The position numbers were made by a program, and so were the translations under genes. This document shows, piece after piece, positions 11,701-31,127 of a stretch of DNA of 64,000 bases. Origin of the DNA: Pseudomonas sp. PSE14 (lineage in GTDB: Bacteria; Pseudomonadota; Gammaproteobacteria; Pseudomonadales; Pseudomonadaceae); contig NZ_CP115669.1 in the NCBI RefSeq assembly GCF_029203285.1, positions 1,302,001 to 1,366,000 of the forward strand, in the 5' to 3' direction. The notes below the pieces were generated by a model, which was not told the DNA's origin, made no database searches, and was given only the letters and a program-made list of their open reading frames with translations. Each line of letters begins with the position of its first letter. Position 1 is the stretch's first letter.

Positions 11701-11723
11701 TCCCACCTCCCTCCCGCCGACCG

Positions 11724-11765: not shown

Positions 11766-11841
11766 CGCGACCAGCTTGCACCATGCCGCTCCGGCGTACG
11801 CCTGGCCAGGCGTGCGTCTTCGCAGTCGAGAAGTCGCGATC

Positions 11842-12540
11842 GTGTCCAGCTGTTCCATCCGTGCGTTGCGCCGTTATCGGCCCGCAGCCCTGTTCCTGGC
11901 GCTGGCGGTGTCGCTCGCCGTGCTGGCTGGCGCGCAACCGGATGCCTGGGACTTCCGCCTGATCGCGCAACGCGCCGAATCGCTCTACGGCCCGCTGGGT
12001 GAGGGACGGGCGCGCATCGACGCCTGGCAGCGCCTGCTCGAGGAGTCCGGCGGCCTGCCCGAGGGCGAGCAGCTGCAGGCGGTCAACCGCTTCTTCAACG
12101 CGCAACTGCGCTTCACCGACGACATCAGCCTGTGGGGCGACGTGGACTACTGGGCGACGCCGGTGGAGGCGCTGCTCAAGGGCGCTGGCGATTGCGAGGA
12201 CTTCGCCATCGCCAAGTACATCAGCCTGCGTCATCTCGGCGTGCCGGCCCAGAAGCTGCGTATCACCTACGTCAAGGCGCTGCGCCTGAACCAGGCGCAC
12301 ATGGTTCTGACGTACTACCCCCGCCCCGATGCGGTACCGCTGGTGCTGGACAACCTGATCGGCAGCCTGCTGCCGGCCAGCCAGCGCACCGACCTGCAAC
12401 CGGTGTACGCCTTCAACGGCGAAGGGCTGTGGCTGGCCAACGCCAGTGGCGGCAAGCAGGTCGGCGACAGCAAGCGGCTGTCTCGCTGGCAGGACCTGCT
12501 GAAGAAAATGAAAGCCGAAGGCTTTCCCCTGAACGAATGA
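11842..12540 (+). CDS. lapG: LapG-type periplasmic cysteine protease that releases the adhesin
   Basis: A bacterial transglutaminase-like cysteine protease of 232 residues. GDCEDFAIAK contains Cys118; with His153 (NQAHMVL) and Asp170 (LVLDNL) it forms the expected triad, with spacing like that of P. fluorescens LapG. A hydrophobic signal (AALFLALAVSLAVLAGA) directs it to the periplasm, where LapG cuts the LapA N-terminus when LapD does not hold it. It is followed 15 bp later by lapD. The GTG at 11842 is chosen because it gives a compact signal peptide; the ATG at 11743 would start inside the terminator of sdsA1. Start is uncertain, function is firm. Confidence 0.85.
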   Translation: MSSCSIRALRRYRPAALFLALAVSLAVLAGAQPDAWDFRLIAQRAESLYGPLGEGRARIDAWQRLLEESGGLPEGEQLQAVNRFFNAQLRFTDDISLWGDVDYWATPVEALLKGAGDCEDFAIAKYISLRHLGVPAQKLRITYVKALRLNQAHMVLTYYPRPDAVPLVLDNLIGSLLPASQRTDLQPVYAFNGEGLWLANASGGKQVGDSKRLSRWQDLLKKMKAEGFPLNE

Positions 12541-12555
12541 GAGCGTGGAGACACG

Positions 12556-14499
12556 ATGTCCCTGTTCAAACAATTGCTCATCGCCATCTGCCTGTTCCTG
12601 CTGGTCGCCTTCAGCGGCAGCTTCATGGTCAGCCTGGAAAGCTCCCGCGAGCAGTACGTCAACCAGCTGCGCTCCCACGCCCAGGACGCCGCGACGGCGC
12701 TGGGGCTGTCGCTCACGCCGAACATCGACGATCCGGCGATGGTCGAGCTGATGGTCAGCTCGATCTTCGACAGCGGCTACTTCGAGAGCATCCGCGTGGT
12801 CGACCTGGCCAGCGGCAAGGTGATCGTCGAGCGTACCGGCGTGCCGGACGCGCTGGCAGCCAAGGTGCCGCAATGGTTCGTTGCGCTGATCGACCTGCAT
12901 TCGGCCGGCGGTGACGCCATCGTCAGCCGCGGCTGGACCCAGGCTGCGCGGGTCGAGGTGCTCAGCCACCCGATGTTCGCCATCGCCAAGCTCTGGCAAA
13001 GCGCGCTGGGCAGCCTGCTGTGGCTGGCCCTGTGTGGGGTGGCCAGCGGCGTGCTCGGGGCGGTCCTGCTGCGTCGCCAACTGAGGCCGCTGGATTACAT
13101 GGTGGAGCAGTCCCACGCCATTGCCCGCCGCGAATTCCTCAGCGTGCCCGAGCTGCCGCGCACGCCGGAACTGCGCCGCGTGGTGCAGGCGATGAACCAG
13201 ATGGTTGAGAAGCTCAAGGCGCTGTTCCAGGAGCAGGCCGAACGCAGCGAGCGGCTGCGCGACGAGGCCTATCTGGACAGCCTGACCGGCCTGGGCAACC
13301 GGCGCTTCTTCGATATGCAGTTGCACGCCCGGTTGAGCGCCGAGGACCAGGTCGGCAGCGGGCTGTTGCTGGTCCTGCGGGTGCGTGACCTGGCCGGCCT
13401 GAACCAGCGCCTGGGCGGCCAGCGTGTCGACCAGTTGCTCAAGGCGGTCGCCGATCAACTGCGCCTGGCCGGGCAGGGCCTTGGCGCTGGCCTGACCCTG
13501 GCGCGCAGCCGGGGCGGCGAGTTCGTGATGCTGGCGCCGGGGCTGATGCCCGAGGAGGCGTCGGCCCTGGCGATGCGCCTGGAGACCATGCTGGCGACCC
13601 TGGCCAGCACCGGGGCAAGCGATGTGAGCCCGGTGGCGAGCATGGGGCTGGTGCCTTTCGTTTCCGGTGAGTCGGCGCAGGCACTGCTGGTGCTGGCCGA
13701 TGAGGCGCTGGCCCTGGCCGAGCGTGAGGGGGAGCGCTGCTGGGCGTTCCTGCAGAGTGGGGCCAGCCCGGTCGCCGAAGAGCGCCATGCCTGGCACCAG
13801 TTGCTGGAGCAGGCCCTGGCACACAGGCGCTTCCAGTTGTATTTCCAGCCAGTGGTGGCGTGCAACGAGCCCACCCGGATACTGCACTACAAGGTGCTCT
13901 CGCGCCTGCCGGACGGGCAGGGCGGCCACATCGCCGCCGGACGCTTCCTGCCCTGGTTGGATCGCTTCGGCTGGACCGCGCGGCTCGACCTGCTGATGCT
14001 GGAAAGCGTACTCGCCGACCTGGCCCGCCACGACCGGCCACTGGCGCTGAACCTGTCGGCGGCGCTGCTGCGCGATGAGTGGGCCACCGGGCGGGTGTTT
14101 GACCTGTTGCGTCAGCATCCGCAGTTCGCCGGACGCCTGACCCTGGAGCTGGAGGAAGACCAGTTGCCGGCCCAGGCAGTGCTGGAAACCCTGACCCGCC
14201 GCCTGCATGAGCTGGGTTACAGCCTGAGCCTGCAGCATTTCGGTGGACGCTTCAGCATGATCGGCAACCTGGCTCGCCTGGGCCTGGCCTACCTGAAGGT
14301 GGACGGCAGCCACATCCGCGCCATCGACCAGGAGAACGACAAGCGCCTGTTCATCGAAGCCATGCAGCGCGCCGCACACAGCATCGACCTGCCGCTGATC
14401 GCCGAGCGGGTGGAGACGGCTGGGGAATTCCGCGTACTGCGCGAGATGGGGATTCAGGGGGCGCAGGGACAATTGTTTGGCGGGCCTGCGCCGTGGTGA
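12556..14499 (+). CDS. lapD: LapD-type c-di-GMP receptor (degenerate GGDEF-EAL)
   Basis: The 647-residue protein has a membrane helix at residues 6-25, a periplasmic output domain (about 26-150), a second helix (about 155-177), a HAMP linker, then GGDEF and EAL domains. The cyclase motif reads RGGEF (319-323) and the EAL motif reads KVL (446-448). Both are degenerate, as in P. fluorescens LapD, which binds c-di-GMP without making or cleaving it. When loaded it sequesters LapG through the periplasmic domain and so protects the adhesin. It sits in an apparent operon behind lapG, with its target LapA next door. Confidence 0.9.
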   Translation: MSLFKQLLIAICLFLLVAFSGSFMVSLESSREQYVNQLRSHAQDAATALGLSLTPNIDDPAMVELMVSSIFDSGYFESIRVVDLASGKVIVERTGVPDALAAKVPQWFVALIDLHSAGGDAIVSRGWTQAARVEVLSHPMFAIAKLWQSALGSLLWLALCGVASGVLGAVLLRRQLRPLDYMVEQSHAIARREFLSVPELPRTPELRRVVQAMNQMVEKLKALFQEQAERSERLRDEAYLDSLTGLGNRRFFDMQLHARLSAEDQVGSGLLLVLRVRDLAGLNQRLGGQRVDQLLKAVADQLRLAGQGLGAGLTLARSRGGEFVMLAPGLMPEEASALAMRLETMLATLASTGASDVSPVASMGLVPFVSGESAQALLVLADEALALAEREGERCWAFLQSGASPVAEERHAWHQLLEQALAHRRFQLYFQPVVACNEPTRILHYKVLSRLPDGQGGHIAAGRFLPWLDRFGWTARLDLLMLESVLADLARHDRPLALNLSAALLRDEWATGRVFDLLRQHPQFAGRLTLELEEDQLPAQAVLETLTRRLHELGYSLSLQHFGGRFSMIGNLARLGLAYLKVDGSHIRAIDQENDKRLFIEAMQRAAHSIDLPLIAERVETAGEFRVLREMGIQGAQGQLFGGPAPW

Positions 14500-14525
14500 A
14501 GGTGTGCTGAATCCATGATCCGGAC

Positions 14526-14685
14526 GTAGGGCGTACAACCGTTCGCGGTGGTACGCCGTTACACCGAAGGTATCGTCGGTTGCATGGTCAGGTTCGGAGT
14601 GCCCCGAGCGGCTCCGTGGTCGGGCCCGAAGTGCTCTGAGACTATGGTTAAACGGCGTATAACGTCGAGCGTTATACGCCCTACG
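14526..14685. repeat. ~160-bp two-hairpin intergenic repeat, copy 2
   Basis: The order is the same as at 1924-2086: a GGCGTACAACCG-type hairpin, a conserved middle including CGGAGTGCCC and GGCTCCGTGGTCGG, then the hairpin GGCGTATAACG/CGTTATACGCC. It lies between the convergent lapD and small lap-linked gene. Confidence 0.75.
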
Positions 14686-14739
14686 CTCCTCGCCCACAGG
14701 CTTTGCAGGGCGCCTTTCCCTGCAAATGAAAACTGGGCC

Positions 14740-15072
14740 TCAGATCAGCCCCGTTTCCTCATCGTCATTGATCAACCGGGTCAGCCCGCCCAGGGCCTCA
14801 CGGGCCTGGGTCCGGTTGAGCAGCTTGGAGCGCGCCGCCGGCGGCAGGTCGGTGATACGGATGACGCCCTTGGCGATCAGCACCGAGATCAGGTCGTCCA
14901 GCACCCGAATCATGTCCAGGTCGCTCTGCTTGAGGTGCAGCAGGCTGCTCTCGGCGGCCTGCCAGGCCAGGATGTCCGGATGGTCGGCCGGCAGCGTTCC
15001 GGTCATCCCTTCGAACTCGGCGTCTTCGACGCGCGCCAGTTTTCCTTCGGCGTTGCGCTGGATGTACAGCAT
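14740..15072 (-). CDS. conserved small protein between lapD and lapA, function unknown
   Basis: The 110-residue soluble protein has no signal peptide. It starts MLYIQRNAEGKLARVEDAEF, continues with a helical region (LKQSDLDMIRVLDDLISVLIAKGVI) and ends acidic (NDDEETGLI). The ATG at 15072 is taken because the conserved-looking sequence begins there. Similar short proteins in Pseudomonas databases are, as I recall, often labelled as tryptophan synthase beta-like, which is not supported by any catalytic feature here. It lies downstream of lapA on the same strand, with a hairpin between. A role in Lap biology is possible but inferred only from position. Confidence 0.65.
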   Translation of the reverse strand: MLYIQRNAEGKLARVEDAEFEGMTGTLPADHPDILAWQAAESSLLHLKQSDLDMIRVLDDLISVLIAKGVIRITDLPPAARSKLLNRTQAREALGGLTRLINDDEETGLI

Positions 15073-15104
15073 CGACCCGTCCCCATTGTCGGATGTGAAA
15101 GTAC

Positions 15105-15140
15105 GCCAGCGGCGCCATCGCAAAGGATGGCGCCGCTGGC
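15105..15140 (-). terminator. perfect 15-bp hairpin behind lapA
   Basis: GCCAGCGGCGCCATC (15105-15119) and GATGGCGCCGCTGGC (15126-15140) are exact inverted copies with a six-base loop. The hairpin lies 47 bp beyond the lapA stop and 33 bp before the small gene. No long T run follows on either strand, so it may end or only attenuate lapA transcripts, or protect the mRNA 3' end. Confidence 0.55.
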
Positions 15141-15186
15141 GCGATGGCTGAGCCTGACTCTTTCGCTGCCTGGCGGCAACGGGGAA

Positions 15187-18100
15187 TCAGTGATGCTCAG
15201 TCTTGACCACGGGATCGGAGCCCGCCACCAGTTTGTTGACGATCTCGGTGGAGGTCGAACCGTAGCTGGTCAAGTCAACGCCGCTCAGCTTGATGGTGAC
15301 GTCTGCACCGCTGTTGACCTGGCCGGTGGTGCTCACCTGCAGGGTCGAGGTGCTGGTGTCTACCTTCAGGTAGCTGAGGATGTCGTTCTGCGCGGCATCC
15401 GGCAGCAGGTCGCTGATGTCGATGCGGTCGCCTTCACCGGCATTGAAGTCGGTGATGGTGTCGTTGCCGATGTCGCCGGCCTTCCAGATGAAGGTGTCCG
15501 CACCCGCACCGCCGGTGAGGATGTCGTTGCCCTGGCCGCCGGTGAGCTGGTCGCTGCCGGTGCCACCCAGCAGGATGTCATTGCCGCCCTCGCCGAACAG
15601 GAAGTCGTTGCCGCCCTGGCCGTAGAGGATGTCGTTGCCGTCGCCACCGTAGAGATTGTCGCTGCCGCCACGGGTGTCGCCGTCGACGTTGAACAGCGCA
15701 TGGTTCTCCTTGATGAAGCTGTACATCTCCTCGGAGGTCGCTACGTGGCCGTTCTTCAGTTCCAGGAACGCCGACAGCGCGCTGACGCCGGAGCCCGCTG
15801 GCAGCTCGGCCGGCTTGACCGGGTTGCCGTTGACGCCCCAGGGCAGGTTGTCGGTGTTGATGCTGTCACCGAAGACGATGTCGTTGCCCGAGCCTGCGTG
15901 GACGGTGTCGTTGCCCGAGGGCGCGAGGTCCGAGCTGCTGGAGCCACCGTGCAGGGCGGCATTGAGCTGGTCGGCCTGGGTGACGATATCGACCTGGCCG
16001 ACCGGGGCAGTGACCAGGTCGTTCCGGGTGATGTTGTCGATGGTGACGGTGGCGTTGTCGTTGTTGCCTTTGCTCGTGTAGTCGTTGAGCTCGAAGTCCA
16101 GGCGATAGGTGCCTTCGCCCACGGCGTTGGTGGTGAAGTTGCTGCCGCCGGTATTGAAGGCGATGGTGTGCTGCTCGACCTGATCCCAGCCGCCGTCGGC
16201 CCGCTGCTTCTCCAGGGTCCAGGTGAATTGGTCGCCCTTGGTCAGGTTCTTGGTGAAGTCGAAGCTGAAGGTCGAGGTCTTGCCCGCCGCGACCGACAGG
16301 TTCGAGCTGATGGCAGTGCTGGCGCCGCTCTTGACGTGGGTGTCCATCATCTGCAGCTTGCCGCCGCTGACGCTGACCGAGCCATTGCCGTCGGTGGCCT
16401 TGCTCCATCCGCTGGGCAGGCTGGCGCTGCCGCCCTCGAAGTCGAACAGGGTGGTGCCCTTGTAATAGGTCACGGAGCCCGCGCCGGTGACATTGGTGTT
16501 GTCGAAGTACTTGAGCGTTGCTTCGTTGACGTTGGTGCCGATGCCGATCGCACGGACCTCGCTGAGCGCCGACAGGTTGGCGAAGGCCTGCGTGGTGTTC
16601 TGCATCAGACTGCCGCTGCCGGTGGACTCGGTCGGGTCGCCGTCGGTGAGGAACAGCGTGACGTTCTCGTTGCCGTTCTGCTGACCGTTGAACCAGTTCA
16701 CCGCCTGGCCGAACGCCTCCTGGTAGTCGGTACCGCCGCCAGCCTGCAAGCCCTCGTACTGCGAGTTGCCGATGGCATCGGTCAACAGCTTGATGTTGGC
16801 ATCGGTCAGGTCATTCACGCTGACCTTGATGCTGGCGGTGCTGTTGAAGCCGATCAGCGCGATGTTGATCACGCCATCGTGGCCCTTCAGCTGGTCGGCC
16901 AGTTTGAGCAGCGCGTCCTTGACCAGCTTCATCCGCGTGTCGTTGTAGTTCCAGGTGCTCCACCCGGCCAGGTTGTCGCCCATGCTGCCGGAAGTATCGA
17001 CGATCAGGGCGATGTTGTAGTTGGTGCCCGGCTGGGTGACGGTCAGGATGCCGCCCACATCGCCCAGGATCACGTCATCGCCCGGGCCGCCGGTCAGGGT
17101 GTTGTCGCCGTTGGGATCGGTGCCGGGGATCTGTACCTGGCCGACATGGATGTCGAAGCCGTGGGTCGCCGAGGTATCCACGCCACCATTGGCGGTGCCG
17201 CCGCTGTCCTGCACGGCGAAGTCGAAGTGCGCGTTGCTGCCCGCGGCGTCCGGCACGAAGGTCAACTTGCCGCTGGCGATGGCGCTGGGGTCGATGGCCT
17301 GGCCGGCCACGACCTTGCTGCCGTCGAGCCACAGGGTGCCGGTATCGGGCAGGGACTTGATGATGACGGCCTGCAGGCCCTGGGACTGGCCGTCCGCGCT
17401 GTCGTTGAAGGCGAAGTCGTTCAGCCCGAAGGTATAGGTCTTGCCGGTGTAGATGCTGGCCGTGGCATCTGCCGACAGCGGCGCGTCGTTCACCGAGTTG
17501 ACGTTCAGGGTGATGGTGTTCGGCGTCGGATCGAAGGCACCAGCGCTGTCCTTCACCGAGAAGGTGAAGTCGGCGTAATGGTTGCCGCTGGCGTTGGCCG
17601 CCGGGGTGAACACCAGGCCGCCCAATTGGCTGGCGGCGATCACCTGGCCGGCGATCACGGCTACACCGTTGAGGGTCAGGCTGCCGGCGGTCGGCAGGCC
17701 GTCGATACGTACGGCGCTCAGGCTGTCGCCATGGTCCACGTCAGTGAAGCCGAAGTCGGCGGCGCTGAAGGTGCGGCTGCTGTCCTCGTTGAGGGTGATG
17801 CTGTTGTCGGCGCCACTGGGGGCGTCGTTGACCGCGTGTACCTGGATGTCCAGCGGCAGGGTGGTGGTCGCCTGGTCGTGGTTGCTCGCCTCGGTGGAGG
17901 TGGCGTTCACCTGCAGGGTAATAGTGCCGTTGGCATTGGCCGGCGGGGTGAAGGTCAGGGTGGAGAGGTTCCAGCCGGTGACGTCCACACTGCCGTTGCT
18001 GGCGTCGGCGGTGAAGCTGTGGATGCCGTCGCTCAGGGTGGCCCCATTGGGGATGCCACTGATGCTGATCGACAGGCTTTCCGAACCGTCGGTATCGACC

Positions 18101-21100
18101 AGCGCCGCGTTGATCTTCGACAGCGGAATACTGGTGTCTTCGTTGCCCTCGTTGGGCCCGAAGACGGTGTAGTGGCCCTGGCCATTGCTGCCGACCAGGT
18201 CGCCCAGGCGCTCGCCCGCACCGGTCAGCTCGCCGGTGTTGTGGTAGACCAGTGCGTTGCCGGTGCCGAGGGTCTGCGCCGCGCTGCCGTTGTCGGACAT
18301 CTTGAGGTTGTAGCTGCCCGGGCCGTTCTGGTTGTGCTGGTAGAGCGCGAGGGTGTAGTAGCCGCTCTCGGTGGGCGTGAAGGTGCCGCTGAACTGGCCG
18401 CTGGTGCCGCCCCAGGTGGCTTCGGCGACGTTGGTGCCGCCGACGACCAGGCGGATGCTGTCATCGCCTGTACCGCTGAAGGTATAGGTGTGGCCGGCCT
18501 CGAGGAAGATCAGGCCGCTGACCTTGTTGGCGGTGCCAGCGCTGACGCTGGAGTTGCTCACGCTGTTGATCGAGCCGCTGCTGTTGGGCGTGCCGGCACC
18601 ATCGATGACCGATTGCAGGGTGGAAGGCGCGGCGCCGCTGCCGTTGCTGCCCAGGGCGAGCCCAGCCCAGCTTTCCAGGGTCAGGCCGGTGGCCGGAGGA
18701 TGGCCGCTGCTGCTGTCCAGGCTGAGGTTCGGCTTGTCCGCCACGGCGATGATGGTCACGTTCACCATCGAGGTGGAGGTACCACCTTTGCCATCGCTGA
18801 TGCTGTAAGTGATGGTATCGGTGCCGCTGAAGTTGGCCTTCGGCGTGTAGGTGACGGTGCCGTCGTCGTTGATCACCAGGGTGCCGTTGTTGGCGCTGGC
18901 TGCGGTGACGGCCAGCGGGTCGCCGTCCACATCGCTGTCGTTGTTCAGCACATCGATGGTGACGGAGCTGTCCTCGTTGACGGTGGCGCTGTCGGGGGTG
19001 GCAACCGGGGCGTCGTTCACCGGGGTGACGGTGAGGTTCAGTGTCGAGCTGCTGCCGGTGTTGGTGGTGTAGGTGATCTCGGGGACCGAGCCGTTCCAAT
19101 CCTTCGCCGGGGTGAAGCTGTAGTTGCCGTCGCTGCCCAGGGTGAAGCTGCCGACGCCGCTGATGGCCGCGCTCTGGCCGGCGTTGAAGCTGCCGTTCAC
19201 GCCCGCGATGCTGAAGCTGGCGACGCTGAGGACGTTGTCCACGTCGTGGTCGTTGGTCAGAACGTTGCCGCTGGCAGGGGTGTCTTCGGCGACGGTTTTG
19301 CTATCCGGGGTCAGAACCGACGGATCGTCCACCGGGGTGACGTTGGCGAAGCTCAGGTCGGCGGTGGCGGTCAGTTTGCCGTCGCTGACAGTGTAGGTCG
19401 CGGTCGGCACCGGGCCGTTGTAGTTCGGCACCGGGGTGAAGGTGAAGCTGCCGTTGCTGTTGATCACCAGCGAGCCGACGCCATTGATCGTCGCGGTATC
19501 GCCGGCGGTGTAGTTGTTGCCGCCAATGGTGAAGCCGGTGACGGTCAGCTTGTCGCCGTCGACATCACTGTCGTTGGTCAGCACGTTGCCGGTGGCCTGG
19601 GTGTCTTCAGTGACCGGAGTCGGGCCGTCATTCAGGGCGATCGGCGCGTCGTTCACCGGAGTGACATCGATCGTCACGATGGATTCGACATAACCGCCGT
19701 TGCCATCGCTGATGCCCACGGTGAAGCTGTCGGGGCCGTGGTAGTTGGCGTTCGGCGTATAGACGTACTGGCCGGTCGCGCTGTCCAGGGTCAAGGTGCC
19801 GTTGGCCGGCTCCTTGCCGCTGACCAGGGCGTAGCTGAGGGTATCGCCGTCGATGTCGCTGGCCGGGATCTGGCCGGGGATCGAGGTGTCTTCCGGCCCG
19901 CTGACGGCCTGGTCGGTGGTGGTAGGAGCATCGTTCACCGGGGTGACGTTGATATAGACGGTGGCAGTGTCGATGCCGCCGTGACCGTCATGGACGCCAT
20001 AGGTGAAGGAGGCCTGGCCGGTGAAGTTCGGCGCCGGGGTAAAGATCAGTTGGCCGCCGACGACGTCGAACGTGCCATTCACCGGGTTGCTGACCATGTA
20101 GACGGAGAGGTGATCGCCGTCTACATCGGTGTCGTTGCCGGTCAGAGCGCCGAAGTCGCCAAAGTTGAAGGTCAGCGGCGTGTCTTCGGCGATGGTGAAG
20201 TGGTCATCGTGCGCCACTGGCGCATCGTTAACCGGGGTGATGCTGACGTCCAGGGTGCTGCTGAAACCGGTATTGGTGGTGTAGGTGACCTGGGGCACCG
20301 CACCATTCCAGTCGGGCAGCGGGGTGAAGCTGTACTGGCCGTCGGTGCCCAGGGTGAACTCGCCCTTGCCGGCGATATTGACCACGGAGCCGGCGGCATA
20401 GCTGCCGGGCAGGCCGGCGATGCTGAAACTGGCGACACTCAGCAGGTTGTCGACGTCCGAATCGTTGGTCAGCACGTTGCCCGTGGCGGGGTGGTCTTCT
20501 TGTGCGCTGCCAGTGTCGGCGACCAGCACGGAGGGGTCATCCACCGCAGTGACGGTGATATGCACGGTACCGGTGGCGACGTTGCCGTTGCCGTCGTGAA
20601 TCCCATAGGTGAAGGAGGCCGGGCCGCTGTAGTTGGCCGTTGGGGTGAAGACCAACTGGCCGCCGACGATGTCGAGCGTGCCGTTCACCGGGCTGCTGAC
20701 CATGTACACGGAGAGATGGTCGCCGTCGGCATCGGTATCGTTGCCGGTGAGCGCGCTCAAGTCACCGATGTTGAAACTCAGCGGGGTGTCTTCGGCGATG
20801 GTGAAGTGATCGTCGTTGGCAACCGGCTTGTCCTGCACCGGAGTGACGGTGATGTCCAGCGTAGAGCTGCTGCCGGTATTGGTGGTGTAGGTGATCTGAG
20901 GGACCGAGCCGTTCCAGTCTGCCGCCGGAGTGAAGCTGTAGTTGCCATCGCTGCCCAGGGTGAAGCTGCCGACACCGCTGATGGTCGCGCTCTGTCCGGC
21001 GGTGAAGTTGCCACTCACGCCAGCGATGCTGAAGCTGGCAACGCTGAGGACGTTATCCACGTCGTGGTCGTTGTCCAGTACGTTGCCGGTGGCAGGATTG

Positions 21101-24100
21101 TCTTCGGCAACGGTGTTGGTGTCCGCGGTCAGTAGCGACGGGTCGTCCACCGGGCTGACATCGGCGAAGCTGAGTTCGGCGCTGGAGCTCAACTGGCCGT
21201 CGGTGACGGTGTAGGTCGCACTGGGCACCGGGCCGTTGTAGTCCTGGGCCGGAGTGAAGGTGAAGCTTCCGTTGCCGTTGATCACCAGCGAGCCTACACC
21301 GTTGATCGTCGCGGTATCGCCGGCGGCGTAGTTGTTACCTCCGATGCTGAAGCCGGTGACGGTCAGGGCGTCGCCGTCGACGTCGCTGTCGTTTTGCAGC
21401 ACGTTGCCGCTGGCCTGGGTATCTTCGGTAACCGTTACCGGGCCGTCATTCAGGGCGATCGGCGCATCGTTCACCGGGGTGACGGTGATATTCAGCGTCG
21501 AGCTGCTGCCGGTGTTGGTGGTGTAGGTGATCTGCGGGACCGAACCGTTCCAGTTCGTGGCCGGAGTGAAGCTGTAATCACCGTCGCTGCCCAGGGTGAA
21601 GCTGCCGACGCCGCTGATGGTTGCGCTCTGGCCGGCGTTGAAGCTGCCGGTGACGCCGTTGATGCTGAAGCTGGCGACGCTGAGGACGTTGTCCACGTCG
21701 TGGTCGTTGGTCAGCACGTTGCCGGTGGCCGGGTTGTCTTCGGCGACGGTTTTGCTATCCGGGGTCAGAACCGACGGATCGTCCACCGGGCTGACATCGG
21801 CGAAGCTGAGTTCGGCGCTGGAGCTCAACTGGCCGTCGCTGACGGTGTAGGTGGCGGTCGGCACCGGGCCGTTGTAGTTCGGCGCCGGGGTGAAGGTGAA
21901 GCTGCCGTCGCCATTGATGACGAGGCTGCCGACGCCCTGGAGGGTGGCGGTCTGGCCTGCTGCGTAGTTGTTGCCGCCGAAGCTGAAGCCGGTAACGGTC
22001 AGCTTGTCGCCATCGACATCATTATCGTTGGTCAGCACGTTGCCGCTGGCCTGGGTGTCTTCGGTGACGGCGCCCGGACCATCGTTCAGGGCGACCGGCG
22101 CGTCATTCACCGGAGTGACGGTGAGGTTGACCACCGATTCGACGGTGCCACCGTTGCCGTCGCTGACGACCACGGTGAAGGTATCGGTGCCGTTGTAGTC
22201 CTTGGCCGGGGTGTAGGTGTACTCACCGGTGGCCGGGTTCAGCGCCAGGCTGCCGTGGGTCGGTTCGGCACCCGGTTTCAGGGTGTAGCTGAGAGTGTCG
22301 TGGTCGACGTCGGTGGCGACGATCTGACCGTTGACCGGCGTGTCTTCGGCTGTGGTCTTGGACTGGTCGGCGGTTTCCGGGGCGTCGTTCACTGGCGTCA
22401 CGGTGAGGTTGACCACCGACTCCACCACGTCACCGTTACCGTCGCTGACGACCACAGTGAAGGTGTCGGTGCCGTTGTAGTCCTTGGCCGGGGTGTAGGT
22501 GTATTCACCGGTGGCCGGGTTCAGCACCAGGCTGCCGTGGGCCGGTTCGGCACCCGGTTTCAGGGTGTAGCTGAGAGTGTCGTGGTCGACGTCAGTGGCG
22601 ACGATCTGACCGTTGACCGGCGTGTCTTCGGCAGTGGTATTGGACTGGTCGGCGGTTTCCGGGGCGTCGTTAACCGGGGTGACGTCGGTGAAGCTCAGGT
22701 CAGCCGTGGCGGTCAGCGAGCCGTCCGTGAGGGTGTAAGTGGCGCTCGGCACCGGGCCGTTGTAGTTCGCTTCCGGGGTGAAGACGAAGCTGCCGTCGCC
22801 ATTGATGACGAGGCTGCCGACGCCCTGGAGGGTGGCGGTCTGGCCTGCTGCGTAGTTGTTGCCGCCGAAGCTGAAGCCGGTAACGGTCAGCTTGTCGCCA
22901 TCGACATCGCTGTCATTGGTCAGCACATTGCCGGTAGCCGGGGTGTCTTCGGTGACCGCTACCGGGCCGTCGTTCTGGGCGATCGGTGCATCGTTCACCG
23001 GAGTGACATCGGCGAATTTCAGGTCGGCCGCGGCGGTCAGCGAGCCATCGGTGACGGTGTAAGTAGCACTCGGCACCGGGCCGATGTAGTTCGCTTCCGG
23101 GGTGAAGGCGAAGCTGCCGTCGCCCTTGATGACGAGGCTGCCAACGCCGTTGATGGTCGCGGTCTGGCCAGCGGCATAGCTGTTGCCGCCGAAGCTGAAG
23201 CTGGTGACGGTCAGGGCATCGCCGTCGACGTCACTGTCGTTGGTCAGTACGTTGCCGGTAGCCGGGGTGTCTTCGGTGACCGCTACCGGGCCGTCGTTCA
23301 GGGCTACCGGCGCATCGTTCACCGGCGTGACGCTGATGTTCAGCGTGGAGCTGCTGCCGGTGTCGGTGGTGTAGGTAACTTCGGGCACCGCGCCGTTGTA
23401 GTCCTGCACTGGGGTGAAGATGTAGCTGCCGTCGGCATTGATCACCAGCGAGCCGACGCCGCCGATGTTCGCGGTTTGTCCGGCGGTGAAGCTGCCCTGT
23501 ACGCCATCGATGCTGAAACCAGTGACGCTGAGCGTGTTGTCCACATCGTGGTCGTTGCTCAGCACGCTACCGGTGGCCGGGGTGTCCTCGGCGACGGTGT
23601 CGGTGTCGGCAACCAGTACCGATGCGTCGTCCACCGGGGTGACGTCGGCGAAGTCGAGCTGCGCGGTGTCGATGGCGCTGCCGTCGCTGACAGTGTAGGT
23701 CGCGCTCGGCACCGGACCGTTGTAGTCCTGGGCCGGCGTGAAGGTGAAGCTGCCGTCGCCATTGATGACGAGGCTGCCGACGCCCTGGATAGTTGCGGTC
23801 TGGCCGGCGGCGTAGTCCTTGCCACCGAAGTTGAAGCCGGTGACGGTCAGCTTGTCGCCGTCGGCATCGCTGTCATTGGCCAGCACGTTGCCGGCGGCCG
23901 GGGCGTCCTCAGTCACCGAGATCGGACCATCGTTCCGGGCGACCGGCGCGTCGTTTACCGGGGTGACGTTGAGGTTGACGACCGACTCGACCGAGCCGCC
24001 TTTGCCATCGCTCACCACCACGGTGAAGCTGTCGCTGCCGTTGTAGTCCTTGGCTGGGGTGTAGGTGTACTCGCCGGTCGCCGGGTTCAGCACCAGGGTG

Positions 24101-25617
24101 CCGTGAGCCGGTTCAGTGCCCGGCTTCAGGGTATAGCTGAGCGTGTCCTGATCCACATCGGTGGCGACGATCTGGCCGGTGACCGGGGTGTCTTCCGCGG
24201 TGGTCTGCGACTGGTTGGCAGTGACCGGTGCATCGTTCACCGGAGTCACGGTTAGGTTGACCACCGATTCGACCGAACCACCTTTGCCATCACTCACCAC
24301 CACGGTGAAGCTGTCGCTGCCGTTGTAGTCCTTGCTCGGGGTGTAGGTGTATTCGCCGGTCACCGGGTTCAGCACCAGGGTACCGTGCGCCGGCTCAGTG
24401 CCCGGTTTCAGGGTGTAGTTGAGCGTGTCCTGATCGACATCAGTGGCGACGATCTGACCACTGATCGGGGTGTCCTCGGCGGTGGTCTGCGACTGACCGG
24501 CAGTAACCGGCGCGTCGTTCACCGGGCTGACATCGCCGAAGTTCAGCTGCGCGGTATCGCTCAGCCGGCCGTCGCTGACGGTGTAGGTCGCGCTCGGCAC
24601 CGGGCCGTTGTAGTTCTGCGCCGGGGTGAAGGTGAAGCTGCCGTCGGTGTTGATTACCAGCGAACCCACGCCACTGACGCTGGCGGTCTGGCCTGCGGCG
24701 TAGTTGTTGCCGCCGAAGCTGAAACCGGTGACGGTCAGCGCATCGCCGTCGACGTCGTGGTCATTGGTCAGCACGTTGCCGGTGGCCGGGGTGTCTTCGG
24801 TCACGGCAGCCGGGCCGTCGTTGGCGGCCTCCGGGGCATCGTTCACCGGGTTCACGCCGACATTGACGGTGATGGTGTCGCGGCCGCCCTGGCCGTCACT
24901 GACCACCACGGTGAAGCTGTCGTTGCCGTTGAAGTTCTGCCCGGGAGTGTAGGTGTAGGTACCGTCGGCGTTGACCACCACGGCGCCATTGCGCGGGGCC
25001 TCGCCCAGATCGAAGCGCAGCGGATTGCCGTCCGGGTCGTTGGCGCGCAGGCGGCCGCTGACCGGGGTGTCTTCATCGGTGCGAAGGGTGGCGTCCTGGC
25101 CGCGCGGGTCGTGGTTCGGCCCGCGCTGGTTTTGCGCGCCCTGCTCCTGCTGTTGCCGGCCGACGGCCTGGCCGTTGCTTGCAGTGCCGAAGCCGATGTT
25201 CGGGTCGACCCGGCCACCCGTCTCGCCGAGCATCACGAAGCTGTGGCCGCCGCCCGCAGCGCCGGAGCCACCGGTGGACGCCGACGGACCTGCCGCGGTG
25301 GGCGCCAGGGCCTGGGTCGGGTCTAGGCCGGCGGCGATGGCTTTCTGCAGGTCCTCGGTGCTCGGAACGGAGAGTTGTGCTTGCGCGTGCGCGGGCGCCA
25401 CGTGCGGCAGGTCGGCGCCGCTCCACTGGCTGTCGCGGCCCAGGTCGACCACGCGGCCGTTGCCGGTATCCAGGGTCACGGCGCCGGCGGCGCCCGTGAC
25501 CAGCTGCTCACCCTGGTAGATGCGGTCACCCTCGACCAAGACGCGCTGGGCGCCTTCGGGAGATACCGCGACTACTTGCCCGATGATGCTTTTGACGACG
25601 GCGACGACGCTGCTCAT
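15187..25617 (-). CDS. lapA: LapA-type giant cell-surface adhesin, exported by type I secretion
   Basis: The 3,476-residue protein lacks a Sec signal. In order: an N-terminal retention module ([20 protein letters not shown]; about 1-125) with the LapG-type TAAG site at 107-110; about 21 tandem cadherin-like repeats (about 170-2295) ending in VTPVNDAP or variants; a PA14-like segment (about 2300-2455, [14 protein letters not shown]); three divergent repeats; a von Willebrand A domain (about 2862-3045) with MIDAS motif DTSGSMG; a further beta-rich domain; RTX nonapeptides (about 3316-3376, [10 protein letters not shown]) for calcium; and a C-terminal secretion region. The ATG at 25617 follows AGGAG. 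LapA-type adhesins anchor cells irreversibly to surfaces. Placement between lapD/lapG and lapEBC supports the name. Confidence 0.93.
18740..25110 (-). repeat. about 21 tandem cadherin-like repeats within lapA, four subtypes
   Basis: Units of about 85-110 residues each begin near AEDTP/TEDTP and end near PVNDAP or PVDDP. Subtype A reads NDGPxxVTEDT...[19 protein letters not shown]. Subtype B reads DSKTVAED...[16 protein letters not shown]. Subtype C reads [25 protein letters not shown]. Subtype D reads [12 protein letters not shown]...[19 protein letters not shown]. Neighbouring units of one subtype are nearly identical in DNA, for example around 22100-22390 and 22390-22680, which indicates recent duplication or gene conversion. 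Edges are approximate. Confidence 0.85.
25288..25299 (-). other. predicted LapG cleavage motif in LapA (Thr-Ala-Ala-Gly)
   Basis: The codons ACC GCG GCA GGT on the minus strand encode Thr107-Ala108-Ala109-Gly110 within [11 protein letters not shown]. fluorescens LapA is known to be cut between two alanines in a TAAG motif at the same residue numbers. The agreement in motif and position makes this the probable cleavage point. Confidence 0.75.
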
Positions 25618-25717
25618 GCACTTCTCCTGATGAGGCTTACCTGGTGTGCCGGCCGGGCGGCCGTTTTCCGTATCGGCGCCAGGGGCATTCCTTGTCATTC
25701 AGAGCGAAATATTTGGC

Positions 25718-25731
25718 GTCAGTAAATTGGC
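25718..25731. promoter_or_regulatory. FleQ-like binding site in the lapA-lapE divergent promoter region
   Basis: GTCAGTAAATTGGC differs at one position from the reported FleQ consensus GTCANTAAATTGAC. It lies 101 bp upstream of the lapA start and about 230 bp upstream of lapE. The whole 342-bp gap (25618-25959) is AT-rich compared with the genome and holds no gene. FleQ controls biofilm adhesin genes in response to c-di-GMP in pseudomonads; action here is inferred. Confidence 0.55.
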
Positions 25732-25959
25732 TTTATGTCAAAACGAAATTGCTTATATGCCAATCTATTGACCATTCGCGTGCCATCCTAAACAATTGGC
25801 AAATCGATGTCACTTTGATATCGAAGCGCCGCCCCAAATATTTTTCGTGAAATGGGTCACGTTTCCCGATGGGTCCTTGCAGCGTATTCGCCGGTCTTTT
25901 GACGCGCTTTGCGGCAATCGAATCGCTGCCGCAATCTCACTGATAAGGATGTTTTCCTC

Positions 25960-27312
25960 ATGCGTCTGCGATTCGCTCAAGTAGTGCCCTTTGCCCTGTC
26001 ATTCGTGCTTCCCGCCCATGCCGACACGCTCAACCAGGCGATGCAGAAGGCCATCGACTACCACCCGGAAATCCAGGCTGGCGTGAACAGTCGACTGGCC
26101 GCCGACAAGCAGCTGCGCGCCGCCCAGGGTGGCTATCTGCCATCGGTCGACCTGCTCGGTGGCTACGGTCGCGAAGGCACCGATTCGCCCACCACCCGCG
26201 CCGAGGGCAATGACCACTGGAAGACCATGAGCCGAGGCGAGTCCAGCCTGCGCCTGCAGCAGATGGTGTTCGACGGCTTCGCCACCTCCAGCGAAGTGGG
26301 CCGCCAGCAAGCCACCGTGAACTCCCGCGCCTACGCGCTGCTGGGCACCTCCGAGCGCACCGCGCTGGAAGTGGCCCAGGTCTATACCGACGTGCTGCGC
26401 CGCCAGGAGATGGTTCGTCTGGCCGAAGCCAACCTGAAGCGTCACCAGCAGGTCTACGACCAGATCAGCCTGCGCAGCGCGCGCGGCGTCGGTCGCCTGG
26501 CCGACCAGGACCAGGCCGAGGCACGCCTGGCCCAGGCGCAGAACAACCTGTTCACCGAGAAGACCAACCTGGCCGACGCCCGCACCAACTACTTCAGCGT
26601 GGTGGGCAGCGAGCCGGTGGACCTGGCCGACCCCTCCGGCCTGAACGGCCAACTGCCGGCGGACCTGCAGGCGGCGCGCCGCCAGCTGCTGGAAAACAGC
26701 CCGATCCTGCGTTCGGCGGAGTCGGACGTGGCGGCGGCGGAGAAGCAGTACGAAGCCGCGAAGTCGACCTTCTATCCAAGATTCGATGCAGAACTTTCCC
26801 GCGGTGCCGATAACAACATCGACGGTGATCCGGGCCACAACAACGAATGGCAGGCCATGCTGCGCATGCGCTACAACCTGTTCGCCGGCGGCAGCAACAA
26901 GGCCGAGCTGGAAGCCAAGTCGTACCAGGCCACCCAGGCACTGGATATTCGCAACAACGCCCTGCGCCAGTTGAACGAGGAACTCGGCTTGTCCTGGAAC
27001 GCCCTGGAAAACGCCCGCGAGCAGCTGCCGATCGCCCGCCAGTACGTGGACTACAGCACCCGTGTGCGCGAGGCCTACCAACAGCAGTTCACCATCGGTG
27101 AGCGCACCCTGCTCGACCTGCTGGACAGTGAGAACGAACTGTTCAACGCGTCGCGTCGCGCGGTTGACCTGAAGTACACCGAACTGTTCACCCAGTACCG
27201 CATCAAGGCCACCCTGGGCGAGCTGCTCAAGAGCCAGGGCGTGGTGGCGCCGATGGCGACCGTGGTGAGCACCGACGTCAAGCCGCAAGTCCAACTGCCG
27301 GGCCTGAACTGA
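25960..27312 (+). CDS. lapE: TolC-family outer membrane channel of the adhesin secretion system
   Basis: The 450-residue protein has a signal peptide (RFAQVVPFALSFVLPAHA) followed by DTLNQAMQKAIDYHPEIQ, the usual start of a mature TolC-type protein. Long helical segments and repeated structure cover the rest. It should form the outer-membrane exit duct for LapA and hold the adhesin through its retention module. The ATG at 25960 is preceded by AAGGA; the longer upstream frame has no signal-like start. It is the first gene of lapE-lapB-lapC and divergent from lapA. Confidence 0.9.
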   Translation: MRLRFAQVVPFALSFVLPAHADTLNQAMQKAIDYHPEIQAGVNSRLAADKQLRAAQGGYLPSVDLLGGYGREGTDSPTTRAEGNDHWKTMSRGESSLRLQQMVFDGFATSSEVGRQQATVNSRAYALLGTSERTALEVAQVYTDVLRRQEMVRLAEANLKRHQQVYDQISLRSARGVGRLADQDQAEARLAQAQNNLFTEKTNLADARTNYFSVVGSEPVDLADPSGLNGQLPADLQAARRQLLENSPILRSAESDVAAAEKQYEAAKSTFYPRFDAELSRGADNNIDGDPGHNNEWQAMLRMRYNLFAGGSNKAELEAKSYQATQALDIRNNALRQLNEELGLSWNALENAREQLPIARQYVDYSTRVREAYQQQFTIGERTLLDLLDSENELFNASRRAVDLKYTELFTQYRIKATLGELLKSQGVVAPMATVVSTDVKPQVQLPGLN

Positions 27313-27361
27313 TCAGGTCCCCGGCCTCAACCCAGCCAGCCCCAACCTAGAGTGCTCCCGC

Positions 27362-29518
27362 GTGGATCAAGAAGTCAGTCGAGTTTCCTCACGTCACGAT
27401 CCGCGCGGTCTGCTCGATGACCCGCTGCTGGACAGCCTGCTGACGCTCTGCCAGCTGCACCAGAAGCCGGCCAGTCGCGCCATGCTCACCAGCGGCCTGC
27501 CGCTGCCCGAGCAACGCCTGACCGCCGAGTTGCTGCCGCGCGCAGCGGCCCGCGCGGGTTTGCAGGGACGCCTGTTGCAACGGCGCCTGGAGCAGATTCC
27601 GGCGCTTGCGCTACCGGCCATGCTGCTGCTGCGCGAGGGACGTTGCGCGGTGCTGCTGGGTTGGGAAGGTGAGGGCCAGGCGCGCCTGCTGCTCAGCGAG
27701 AGCGACGGCGGCGAAGTGCGCGTGTCCCGCGAGCTGCTGCTGGAGGATTACAGCGGCCAGGCATTCTTCGCCCAGCCGCAGCACAAGTTCGACCTGCAGC
27801 ACGGGGAGCTCATTCCCCGCGCCAAGAGCTGGTTCCGCGATACCCTGAAGCGCTCGCGCTGGCTGTATGTCGACGCGGTGGCCGCGAGCCTGCTGATCAA
27901 CCTGATCGCCCTGGCCGCACCGCTGTTCGTGATGAACGTCTACGACCGCGTGGTGCCCAACCAGGCCGCCGCTACCCTCTGGGTGCTGGCCATCGGCATC
28001 AGCGGCGCCTACCTGTTCGACCTGCTGCTCAAGACCATGCGCGGCCTGTGCCTGGACCTGGCGGGCAAGAAGACCGACCTGATCATCTCGGCGACGCTGT
28101 TCGAGCGTATCGTCGGCATGAGCATGAAATACCGGCCCGCGCGGGTCGGCAGCTTTGCGCAGAACATCCACGAATTCCAGACGCTGCGCGACTTCCTCAA
28201 CTCGCTGACCCTCACTACCCTGATCGACCTGCCGTTCACCCTGCTGATCCTGCTGGTGATCGGCATCATCGGCGGGCCGCTGGTGTTCGTCCCGCTGGTG
28301 GCCTTCCCGCTGGCCGCGGGTCTGGGCTGGATGCTGCAGAAGCCGCTGGTGGAGACCATGAACCGCACCATGGCGCTGTCCGCCGAGCGCCAGTCGAGCC
28401 TGATCGAGACACTGGCCAGCCTCGACGCGGTGAAGGTGAACAACGCCGAGAGCGAGCGCCAGTACCTCTGGGAACAGACCATCGGTACCCTGAGCCGCCT
28501 GGAACTGCGGGTGAAACTGCTGTCGTCCCTGGCGATGAACAGCACCGTGCTGATCCAGGCGCTGGCCGGGGTGGTGATGATCATCGGCGGCGTCTACCTG
28601 ATCATCGCCGGCGACCTGTCCATGGGTGGCCTGATCGCCTGCTACATGCTCAACGGCCGCGCCCTCGGCCCGCTGACCCAGCTCTCCGGGCTGATCCAGC
28701 GCTACCAGCAGGCGCGCCTGTCCATGGAGACCACCAACCAGATGATGGAACTGCCGCAGGAGCGAAGCGCCGACGAGCGTCCGCTGACCCGCTCGCAACT
28801 GCGCGGCGGCATCGAGATGCGCGAGCTGGATTTCGTCTACCCGAACCAGCAGGTGGCGGCGCTGCACGGCATCAACCTGCAGTTCCGTCCTGGCGAGAAG
28901 GTCGGCATCGTCGGCCGCAGCGGCTCGGGCAAGAGCTCCCTGGCCAAGCTGATCGTCGGCCTCTACCAACCGGACAAGGGCAACCTGCTGGTGGATGGCG
29001 CCGACGTGCGCCAGCTGGACATCAGCGAGCTGCGCCACAACATCGGCTACGTGCCGCAGGACATCAGCCTGTTCAGCGGCACCCTGCGCGACAACCTGGT
29101 CTGCGGGGCGCGCTACGTGGATGACGAGCGCGTGCTGGAGGTGGCCGAGCTGACCGGCGTGAACGAGTTCGTCCGCCTGCATCCGCAGGGCTACGAGCTG
29201 CAGGTCGGCGAACGCGGCCTGAACCTGTCCGGTGGCCAGCGGCAGAACGTCGCCCTGGCCCGTGCGCTGCTGCTCGATCCGCCGATCCTGCTGCTCGACG
29301 AGCCCACCAGCGCCATGGACAACGCCGGCGAAGAGCGCCTGAAGCAGCGCCTGCATTCGATCATCGGCGACAAGACGCTGCTGCTGGTCACCCACCGCGC
29401 CTCCATGCTCAGCCTGGTGGACCGCCTGGTGATCATCGACAAGGGACGCATCATCGCCGACGGCCCGAAGGACGTGGTGATGGACGCATTGAAGAAGGGG
29501 CAGATCAGTGTCGCTTGA
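27362..29518 (+). CDS. lapB: type I secretion ABC transporter for LapA
   Basis: The 718-residue protein has an N-terminal C39-like domain (about 1-140), a six-helix membrane domain (about 165-450) and an ATPase domain. Walker A is GRSGSGKSSL (from about residue 518), the signature is LSGGQRQNVALARALL and Walker B is ILLLDEP. In the C39-like region the stretch HQKPASRAML takes the place of the active DCGxAC motif, so the catalytic cysteine appears absent. This fits exporters whose substrate is not cut at a double glycine. It starts with GTG at 27362 and overlaps lapC by 11 bases. Confidence 0.92.
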   Translation: MDQEVSRVSSRHDPRGLLDDPLLDSLLTLCQLHQKPASRAMLTSGLPLPEQRLTAELLPRAAARAGLQGRLLQRRLEQIPALALPAMLLLREGRCAVLLGWEGEGQARLLLSESDGGEVRVSRELLLEDYSGQAFFAQPQHKFDLQHGELIPRAKSWFRDTLKRSRWLYVDAVAASLLINLIALAAPLFVMNVYDRVVPNQAAATLWVLAIGISGAYLFDLLLKTMRGLCLDLAGKKTDLIISATLFERIVGMSMKYRPARVGSFAQNIHEFQTLRDFLNSLTLTTLIDLPFTLLILLVIGIIGGPLVFVPLVAFPLAAGLGWMLQKPLVETMNRTMALSAERQSSLIETLASLDAVKVNNAESERQYLWEQTIGTLSRLELRVKLLSSLAMNSTVLIQALAGVVMIIGGVYLIIAGDLSMGGLIACYMLNGRALGPLTQLSGLIQRYQQARLSMETTNQMMELPQERSADERPLTRSQLRGGIEMRELDFVYPNQQVAALHGINLQFRPGEKVGIVGRSGSGKSSLAKLIVGLYQPDKGNLLVDGADVRQLDISELRHNIGYVPQDISLFSGTLRDNLVCGARYVDDERVLEVAELTGVNEFVRLHPQGYELQVGERGLNLSGGQRQNVALARALLLDPPILLLDEPTSAMDNAGEERLKQRLHSIIGDKTLLLVTHRASMLSLVDRLVIIDKGRIIADGPKDVVMDALKKGQISVA

Positions 29519-30878
29519 TCCCAAAGGCAGCATTCGCCACAGCATCGGCGGTTATTTCAAGGGCGGCGACAACCTCTCCGGCCAACCGCTTCCCGAAGTC
29601 AGCAAGGCGCTGGTGGAAGACGCGCCGCGCGTGGTGCGCCTGACCATCTGGGTGCTGATCGGCTTCGTCCTGTTCCTCGGCCTGTGGGCGCACTTCGCCA
29701 AGATCGATGAAGTCACCCGTGGCGAAGGCAAGGCCATTCCCTCGTCCAAGGTGCAGAAGATCCAGAACCTGGAAGGCGGCATCGTCTCGCAGATCTTCGT
29801 CCACGAAGGCGAGGTGGTGCAGGCCGGCGAATCGCTGATGCGCCTGGACCCGACCCGCTTCCAGTCCAACGTCGGCGAGACCGAGGCCGACCGCCTGGCC
29901 ATGTTCCTGCGGGTGGAGCGACTCTCCGCGGAGGTCGAAGACCGCGCGCTGAACGTCCCCGACGACGTGCGCGCCAAGGTGCCCGGCCAGGCCAGCAGCG
30001 AAGAGGCGCTGTTCCACAGCCGCCAGCAGCAACTCAAGGACGAGGTCGCCGGCCTTGAGCAGCAACTGGTGCAGAAGCAACAGGAGCTGCGCGAATTCGT
30101 CTCCAAGCAGGCGCAATACCGCAACAGCCTGGAACTGCTGCGCCAGGAAATCTCCATGTCCGCGCCGCTGGTGGCGCAGGGCGCCATGTCCCAGGTGGAA
30201 CTGCTGCGCCTGAAGCGCTCGGAAGTGGAAAACCGTGGCCAGCTCGACGCCACCACCCTGGCGATTCCCCGCGCCGAGGCGGCGGTGAAGGAAGTCGAGC
30301 GCAAGGTCGCCGAGACCCGCTCGCGCTTCCGCAGCGAGGCGCTGAAGGAGCTCAACGAGGCGCGCACCGACCTGAGCAAGGCCGAGGCTACCGGCAAGGC
30401 GCTGGAGGACCGGGTAAACCGTACCCTGGTTACCTCGCCGGTGCGGGGTATCGTCAAGCAGCTGCTGGTCAACACCATCGGCGGCGTGATCCAGCCGGGC
30501 AGCGACCTGGTGGAAATCGTCCCGCTGGACGACACCCTGCTGGTGGAGGCGCGCATCCGCCCGCAGGACATCGCCTTCCTGCGGCCGGGGCAGCATGCGA
30601 TGGTCAAGTTCACTGCCTACGACTACACCATCTACGGCGGGCTGGAGGCGGACCTTGAACAGATCGGCGCGGACACCGTCACCGATGACGATGGCAACAG
30701 CTTCTACCTGATCAAGCTGCGCACCCGCAAAAGCCACCTGGGCACCGATGACAAGCCGCTGCTGATCATCCCCGGCATGGTGGCCACGGTGGACATCATC
30801 ACCGGCAAGAAGAGCATCCTGAGCTACCTGCTCAAGCCCATCCTGCGGGCCAAGGCGGAGGCGTTGCGGGAGCGGTGA
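29508..30878 (+). CDS. lapC: HlyD-type membrane fusion protein of the LapA exporter
   Basis: The 456-residue protein has a short cytoplasmic start, a single membrane helix (LTIWVLIGFVLFLGLWAHFA) and a periplasmic lipoyl/barrel-sandwich region (GKAIPSSKVQKIQNLEGGIV). A long coiled coil (about residues 165-300) and a C-terminal beta domain follow. It bridges LapB in the inner membrane and LapE in the outer membrane. The start lies inside the end of lapB, indicating coupled translation. Confidence 0.92.
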   Translation: MSLDPKGSIRHSIGGYFKGGDNLSGQPLPEVSKALVEDAPRVVRLTIWVLIGFVLFLGLWAHFAKIDEVTRGEGKAIPSSKVQKIQNLEGGIVSQIFVHEGEVVQAGESLMRLDPTRFQSNVGETEADRLAMFLRVERLSAEVEDRALNVPDDVRAKVPGQASSEEALFHSRQQQLKDEVAGLEQQLVQKQQELREFVSKQAQYRNSLELLRQEISMSAPLVAQGAMSQVELLRLKRSEVENRGQLDATTLAIPRAEAAVKEVERKVAETRSRFRSEALKELNEARTDLSKAEATGKALEDRVNRTLVTSPVRGIVKQLLVNTIGGVIQPGSDLVEIVPLDDTLLVEARIRPQDIAFLRPGQHAMVKFTAYDYTIYGGLEADLEQIGADTVTDDDGNSFYLIKLRTRKSHLGTDDKPLLIIPGMVATVDIITGKKSILSYLLKPILRAKAEALRER

Positions 30879-30966
30879 TCGACTTTGCATCCGCTCCTGC
30901 GGGCTGGGTTCTCCGGTTTCGTAGGAGCAACTGTCTTCTACCGGGTTGATCCCTGCCTGCGTCTCC

Positions 30967-31085: not shown

Positions 31086-31127
31086 CCTTTGATCTTGTAG
31101 GAGCGGAATCTGTCTACGATGCTTTTC

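Follow-up and report, generated by a model that had tools for sequence, protein, structure and literature searches.

The lap adhesin module described here very probably occupies an old Lap site, one that already carried the module in the ancestor of the Pseudomonas aeruginosa group and its nearer relatives. On this account, sdsB1-sdsA1 would have entered on the left of the module and an nmrA-like gene with an ion-channel gene on its right; the P. aeruginosa line would later have lost the module, and a seven-genome sister clade that includes P. citronellolis would have either lost it or moved it. P. aeruginosa would have retained only a second, paralogous lapG-lapD pair. A preliminary description of this DNA had offered two readings, gain of the module in this lineage or its loss in P. 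aeruginosa. The sharing of the site outside the genus, the trees and the native composition favour the second reading over the first, and loss elsewhere appears better supported than gain here, with position and the trees carrying the case.

The analysed window comprises 64,000 nucleotides, bases 1302001-1366000 of a single-contig 5.98 Mb genome (G000) whose relatives include named P. aeruginosa-group species. Judged from its sequence, the stretch 11842-30878 is a complete Lap system of known kind, and the gene series previously listed for it, lapG-lapD-small gene-lapA-lapEBC, is present in full. The first gene, lapG (11842-12540, plus strand), encodes a periplasmic cysteine protease (Peptidase_C93) that belongs to the LapG family by the equivalog model NF045674 (380 bits; cut-off 320). 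The product of lapD (12556-14499, plus strand), a c-di-GMP receptor, scores 1074 bits against the equivalog NF045673 (cut-off 1020) and has a LapD_MoxY periplasmic domain, a HAMP domain, and degenerate GGDEF and EAL domains in which RGGEF replaces GGDEF and KVL replaces EAL; degenerate motifs in these two domains of LapD have been reported (PMC3032553). On the minus strand lie lapA (15187-25617) and, downstream of it, a small conserved gene of 110 amino acids (aa), which we call orfX (14740-15072). LapA is a large RTX adhesin of 3476 aa with an N-terminal retention module (NF033682, 121 bits; cut-off 50), the motif TAAG at residues 107-110 as a candidate LapG site, about twenty tandem cadherin/Ig-like repeats, a VWA domain, RTX nonapeptides and zero cysteines. 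A dedicated type I secretion system follows on the plus strand: lapE (25909-27312, given as the longest open reading frame (ORF), with an ATG start further in) for a TolC-type outer-membrane channel, lapB (27362-29518) for the ABC transporter (TIGR03375, 953 bits; cut-off 693) and lapC (29508-30878) for an HlyD-type membrane fusion protein, LapE and LapC also being above the cut-offs of TIGR01844 and TIGR01843.

With this arrangement lapA is convergent with lapGD and divergent from lapEBC. The interval between lapA and lapE (25618-25908) is a putative divergent promoter region: all four promoter-like matches in 11650-31400, which are consensus matches only, sit at 25768-25844, with 1.7 expected in shuffles. 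Opposite lapA, codon scoring passed over plus-strand ORFs of 2195, 953 and 313 aa, which look like high-GC mirror frames, and a 1674-aa minus-strand ORF opposite sdsA1-lapG-lapD was taken as a mirror frame of high-GC genes. A search of Rfam gave no matches.

By analogy with the established Lap mechanism (PMC3032545, PMC3032553), LapB, LapC and LapE would, as their named families suggest, export LapA, and the N-terminal retention module would keep it in the outer membrane. Cleavage by LapG at the N-terminal TAAG site would release the adhesin. LapD bound to c-di-GMP would sequester LapG in the periplasm, so that cells would stay attached.

To the left, the locus is anchored by a gene for a small DUF1145 membrane protein (8151-8408, plus strand), whose homologues we compared across loci. 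Next come an sdsB1-like LysR regulator gene (8718-9944, minus strand) and the sdsA1 alkyl sulfatase gene (9727-11700, plus strand), a pair upheld by family searches. An intrinsic terminator 3' of sdsA1 (11723-11766, plus strand) is real, as the preliminary description had it, with 16 paired positions and a T run. The long palindrome that had been proposed as the right-hand boundary is also real (30966-31085), but it does not mark a boundary of the module, because its core pattern is a dispersed inverted repeat with 25 copies in G000. Beyond it, all on the minus strand, are an NAD(P)H-binding, nmrA-like gene (31343-31984), an ion-channel gene (32104-32883), a PA0743-like gene for a 3-hydroxyisobutyrate dehydrogenase-like protein (HIBADH; 32804-33841), at which the conserved right flank begins, and the ech2, ech1 and acyl-CoA dehydrogenase genes (33868-37234), which form a right anchor common to the outgroups. 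Family searches give this flank as nmrA-like, ion channel, HIBADH, ECH, ECH, acyl-CoA dehydrogenase and ung, and further right identify TctB/TctA/OprD, nadB, a sigma factor, mucA, mucB, a DegP-type protease, lepA and era.

We judged the gene order of PAO1 through G012, a P. aeruginosa-type genome of 6,588,339 bp; compared by eye, its SdsA1 and the solved SdsA1 2CFU share about 98% identity. The genes of G012 run DUF1145-sdsB1-sdsA1-nmrA-ion channel-HIBADH, and sdsA1 and nmrA stand 46 bp apart. In P. aeruginosa, SdsA1 is encoded by PA0740 (PMC3920027), and the best structure matches of the HIBADH of the window are 3OBB and 3Q3C, the latter being PA0743 of PAO1 (PMC3642240). Two locus numbers therefore lie between these genes in PAO1, as two genes do in G012, and the nmrA-like and ion-channel genes would hold the positions of PA0741 and PA0742. 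The PAO1 order given in the preliminary description is right as far as these comparisons reach.

Within the genus, 16 of 25 genomes carry the module between sdsA1 and the nmrA-HIBADH genes, with lapG-lapD 3' of sdsA1 and lapEBC preceding nmrA and the ECH genes. The module lies on one contig in 12 of the 16 (lapA of G020 contains two runs of N), and an assembly break falls inside it in the other four: between lapD and the small gene in G008 and G017, in lapA in G014, and in both lapA and lapB in G010. The 25 include G005, which the database places in the genus and the core tree places with P. guariconensis; its module is on other contigs. Seven genomes have a module-free site on a single contig (G007, G009, G011, G012, G013, G016 and G021). 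In five of these sdsA1 adjoins nmrA (G007, G009, G011, G012 and G016), in G021 it adjoins HIBADH, and G013 has neither sds nor lap at the site. The sdsA1-nmrA gap of G009 contains 395 N, so its site is only partly readable. In G019 a contig break falls at the site, and the rest of that genome has neither a close lapD nor a close lapB. P. citronellolis (G009) and G011 carry a whole module elsewhere, beside genes that by eye resembled pca genes. No coding remnant of lap was detected at the seven empty sites (best tblastn E 0.028). Matches by blastn at empty sites, with E values down to 2e-7, trace to a short inverted repeat and not to a lap coding remnant; those in G009 and G011 coincide with the repeat that separates lapD from orfX.

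In many Pseudomonas outside the genus this module likewise stands beside these right-hand genes, with a shared operon on its left. We hand-picked 32 genomes from 80 loci as outgroups. A lapC at least 70% identical to that of the window is present in 21 of the 32, one being P. citronellolis, which falls in the genus. Of the other 20, 15 have the ech2 orthologue at a distance of 14 bp to 2.8 kb from lapC; the remaining five have no ech2 nearby on one contig. The left operon of the outgroups encodes a large carboxylase, DUF1989 proteins and an ABC transporter, and we take it to be of the guanidine/urea carboxylase type. It stands left of lapG in 16 of 26 loci (L035-L060), including a remnant in P. 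taeanensis, where only lapG and orfX remain between the same two flanks as a relic of the module. Both flanks were found in 13 genomes, on separate contigs in ten and on one unbroken contig in three (P. kuykendallii, P. argentinensis and Pseudomonas sp. P818). Four loci of the fluorescens/putida type (L043, L051, L055 and L056) have the module with a different left neighbourhood, and the site is therefore not ancestral for all Pseudomonas.

The left flank also bears on the order of events. Three members of the window's own clade (L032-L034) have the guanidine-type operon followed by DUF1145, sdsB1, sdsA1 and lapG, and a DUF1145 homologue stands left of sdsB1 in the window and in L031-L034. In the outgroup loci L035, L045 and L050, lapG comes directly after DUF1145. 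The only matches to sdsA1 in 46 outgroup loci, at 31-32% (L035 and L050), are to another alkyl-sulfatase gene left of DUF1145. The sdsBA pair, and not lap, thus looks like the later arrival at the site, a likely intruder between DUF1145 and lapG. The nmrA and ion-channel genes had no match in the 46 outgroup loci (E up to 0.001).

All trees were quick IQ-TREE searches with SH-aLRT support and no bootstraps. In a four-gene core tree of 45 genomes, G012 branches first in the genus, and the remainder divides into a seven-genome clade without lap at the site (G007, G009, G011, G013, G016, G019 and G021) and the 16-genome clade that has it. A tree of LapD, LapE, LapB and LapC from 38 genomes places the 16 together with P. 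citronellolis and G011 in one clade (SH-aLRT 100), which is what the core tree leads one to expect. The other main groups of this Lap tree also match those of the core tree. Conflicts do occur: P818 pairs with BN411 (support 100) only in the Lap tree, and the position of G005 and P. guariconensis shifts. Lap and core p-distances correlate with r = 0.95 over 595 non-independent pairs, a table from which the gappy rows G068, G075 and G010 were omitted. In AU tests, which omitted G068 and G075 and used groups named after the tree had been seen, uniting the 16 with outgroup holders of the site was rejected both for BN411 with P818 and for P. kuykendallii (p 6e-56 and 1e-30).

Base composition gives no sign of foreign origin. 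GC, GC3 and the codon-use index of the lap genes are within about 1.1 standard deviations of those of 34 flanking genes. No integrase was found among the neighbours scanned (Pfam, part of the neighbours) and no tRNA gene in the window; over this range none of the marks of a horizontal island (foreign composition, mobility genes or boundary repeats) was found. Taken with the outgroup loci and the trees, the outcome comes close to contradicting a gain and stops short of proof.

Presence and absence at the site do not by themselves decide the ancestral state. With 31 genomes coded as present and 11 as absent (G019, G056 and G068 uncoded), parsimony requires five changes whether the genus ancestor had or lacked the module, since G012 is the earliest branch and the sister clade, too, has no lap at the site. 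If losses are made dearer than gains, ancestral absence is cheaper (8 versus 10); if gains are made dearer, ancestral presence is cheaper (5 versus 6). In an alternative history, the genus ancestor had already lost lap, and the 16-genome clade, or the ancestor it shares with its sister clade, regained the module at this very position, possibly through recombination with a donor. This history costs the same on presence alone, and the clean junction of sdsA1 and nmrA in G012, at the 46-bp gap, is also in its favour. However, the insertion would have had to land between the same two neighbourhoods, and the lap copies have those of P. citronellolis and G011 as their sister group, not those of any sampled donor, with grouping with the sampled outgroup donors rejected. 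The native base composition also speaks against it, although an unsampled donor would still fit. We regard such a regain as unlikely.

We consider it very unlikely that the lapA locus is decaying or non-functional in this genome. In G020 the frame running on from the retention module reaches only 1363 aa, a shortening that may be an assembly gap because that lapA contains the two runs of N; in the window, by contrast, every frame of the module is open, with LapG, LapD, the LapA retention module and LapB above their cut-offs, and LapB is 94-98% identical among the intact copies of the 16-genome clade. That the lineage of this genome recently acquired a lap island by horizontal transfer, as the empty site in the P. 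aeruginosa-type genome and in the sister clade might suggest, is scarcely credible. Every one of the 16 genomes of the clade has the module at this position, and the broadly congruent trees, the lack of an integrase among scanned neighbours and of a tRNA gene in the window, flank-like GC, GC3 and codon use, a right-hand repeat that is dispersed, and the contradicting outgroup loci all speak against it.

A tree of 99 LapD sequences from the loci together with chain 3PJW splits into two families, apart from one very long Kluyvera row (L077). The LapD of the window and 3PJW fall in the same family. The other family contains the only LapD of G012, one of several other long rows in the tree, and the second LapD of G000, which has a separate second lapG-lapD pair at 4.23 Mb. 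In G012 the LapD-LapG pair adjoins lasI-lasR, which is presumably also the setting of PA1433 in PAO1. PA1433 and PA1434 had been taken for orthologues of lapD and lapG; with G012 as proxy, they are probably paralogues of the window's lapDG, because the LapD of G012 groups with the second LapD of G000, and they probably match the second pair also present in G000.

PA1434-PA1433 (LapG-LapD) of P. aeruginosa is the same kind of receptor-protease pair, and it is reported to complement P. putida mutants (PMC4694147). Judged by G012, it differs from the module of the window in belonging to the second LapD family and in coming with neither a retention-module adhesin above cut-off nor orfX; what corresponds to it in G000 is the separate 4.23 Mb pair. 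P. aeruginosa is reported to possess LapD and LapG but to lack LapA, with CdrA as the target of the pair (PMC4694147), and a survey covering 611 genomes reported CdrA to be specific to that species (PMC7716237). A retention-module adhesin above cut-off is present in 23 of the 25 genomes of the genus, the exceptions being G012 (one weak match, 26.5 bits) and G016 (none). At about 4.306 Mb, G000 has a second such adhesin, accompanied by type I secretion genes of its own; this locus is separate from the window, and its LapB is about 59% identical to the window's. It recalls MapA-MapBCE, the second RTX adhesin system of P. fluorescens, in general kind only.

The module of the window is closest in character to the Lap system of P. 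fluorescens Pf0-1, which has the same genes, lapG-lapD-lapA-lapEBC. LapD residues 22-153 and 222-647 match the solved LapD chains 3PJV and 3PJW (577 bits for 3PJW), which we take to be those of Pf0-1. The systems differ in that loci of the fluorescens/putida type have the other left neighbourhood noted above and in that LapA of the window is shorter, at 3476 aa, than that of Pf0-1, at about 5200 aa. The 23-residue cleavage region of LapA is similar to the one listed for P. fluorescens in Table 2 of PMC3032553.

In the accessible text of the survey PMC7716237, LapA comes mainly from the fluorescens and putida groups, and P. nitroreducens and P. citronellolis go unmentioned. The presence of LapD and LapG without LapA in P. 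aeruginosa is noted in PMC3032553 and PMC4694147, whose accessible parts give no evolutionary account of it. Nor did our literature search, which covered titles and abstracts and left subscription journals mostly outside, return a paper on this synteny or on lap loss in P. aeruginosa, and the portion of PMC10333796 available to us contains nothing on either. The comparison made here offers such an account, in which the LapA module would have been lost from a conserved site and the remaining pair would be a paralogue. It also counsels caution, as residue-level or substrate conclusions drawn from LapD and LapG of Pf0-1 would not be transferable to PA1433/PA1434 as though these were orthologues. 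What merits the attention of specialists is the probable paralogy of the P. aeruginosa pair, along with the unnamed small gene.

A broader reading ties these two points together, and we put it forward tentatively, as an open possibility slightly short of an even chance. P. aeruginosa would be the reduced descendant of a two-module ancestor, having lost both the lap module at this site and the second retention-module adhesin, so that the surviving LapG-LapD pair beside lasI-lasR was left controlling the unrelated CdrA; orfX would be an overlooked seventh component of the Lap system. The lap cluster of P. fluorescens F113 is described as having seven ORFs, of which six are named (PMC7716237), and the unnamed seventh may be orfX.

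orfX is conserved and under purifying selection: an alignment of 36 homologues has 21 invariant columns, and 11 pairs gave dN of 0-0.03 versus dS of 0.10-0.31. It is present in 46 of 114 relatives, with no match in G012. Among 56 genomes searched for LapG, a count that leaves out 14 other orfX-carrying genomes, 32 have orfX together with a LapG-family gene, nine have LapG without orfX and 15 have neither (Fisher p = 8e-8, kinship ignored); orfX never occurs there without a LapG-family gene. The corresponding numbers outside the genus are 10, 6 and 15 (p = 2e-4, kinship again ignored). No NCBIfam family matched up to E 0.1, Pfam (E up to 1) gave scattered weak matches only (best E 0.011, in at most three of the 36 members), and the single PDB match (E 0.72) is a chance one that reveals no solved relative. 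orfX is thus a small conserved gene without a Pfam or NCBIfam family that could be tested in existing Lap model strains. A search of plasmids returned one Halomonas record, at 38%. In the structure predicted for the protein (pLDDT 80, pTM 0.44), two long helices come after a small region of strands.

In the window, the 110-residue gene between lapD and lapA (14740-15072, minus strand) is strongly conserved and belongs to no named family. Across the 56 genomes compared, those that carry this small gene always carry a LapG-family gene as well. At the lap site of P. taeanensis (loci L054 10001-11194 and L186), only lapG and the small gene remain between the two conserved flanks, with lapD, lapA and lapEBC all absent from the site. 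The related genome G016 has a single, divergent LapG-family gene (41%; L162) and the small gene at another place. Searches of this genome for LapD and for a retention-module adhesin gave no match to either.

Among the 16 genomes of the genus that have the lap module between sdsA1 and nmrA, the lapA open frame ranges from 2593 to 5145 aa. This range was obtained from 13 of the 16, leaving out G010 and G014, in which contig ends cut lapA, and G020, which has runs of N within it. By contrast, LapB, the type I secretion ABC transporter, is 94-98% identical among the intact copies of this clade.

The window's own genome has a second lapG-lapD pair at 4.234 Mb (L157). Approximately 70 kb from that pair, at 4.306 Mb (L168), it encodes another retention-module adhesin besides the window's LapA, accompanied by a separate set of type I secretion genes. 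In the P. aeruginosa-type genome G012, lasI and lasR adjoin the lapG-lapD pair (L158 7068-11421). The relocated lap module of P. citronellolis (L152 and L236) is adjoined by another giant gene, the product of which appears by eye to be a repeat protein.
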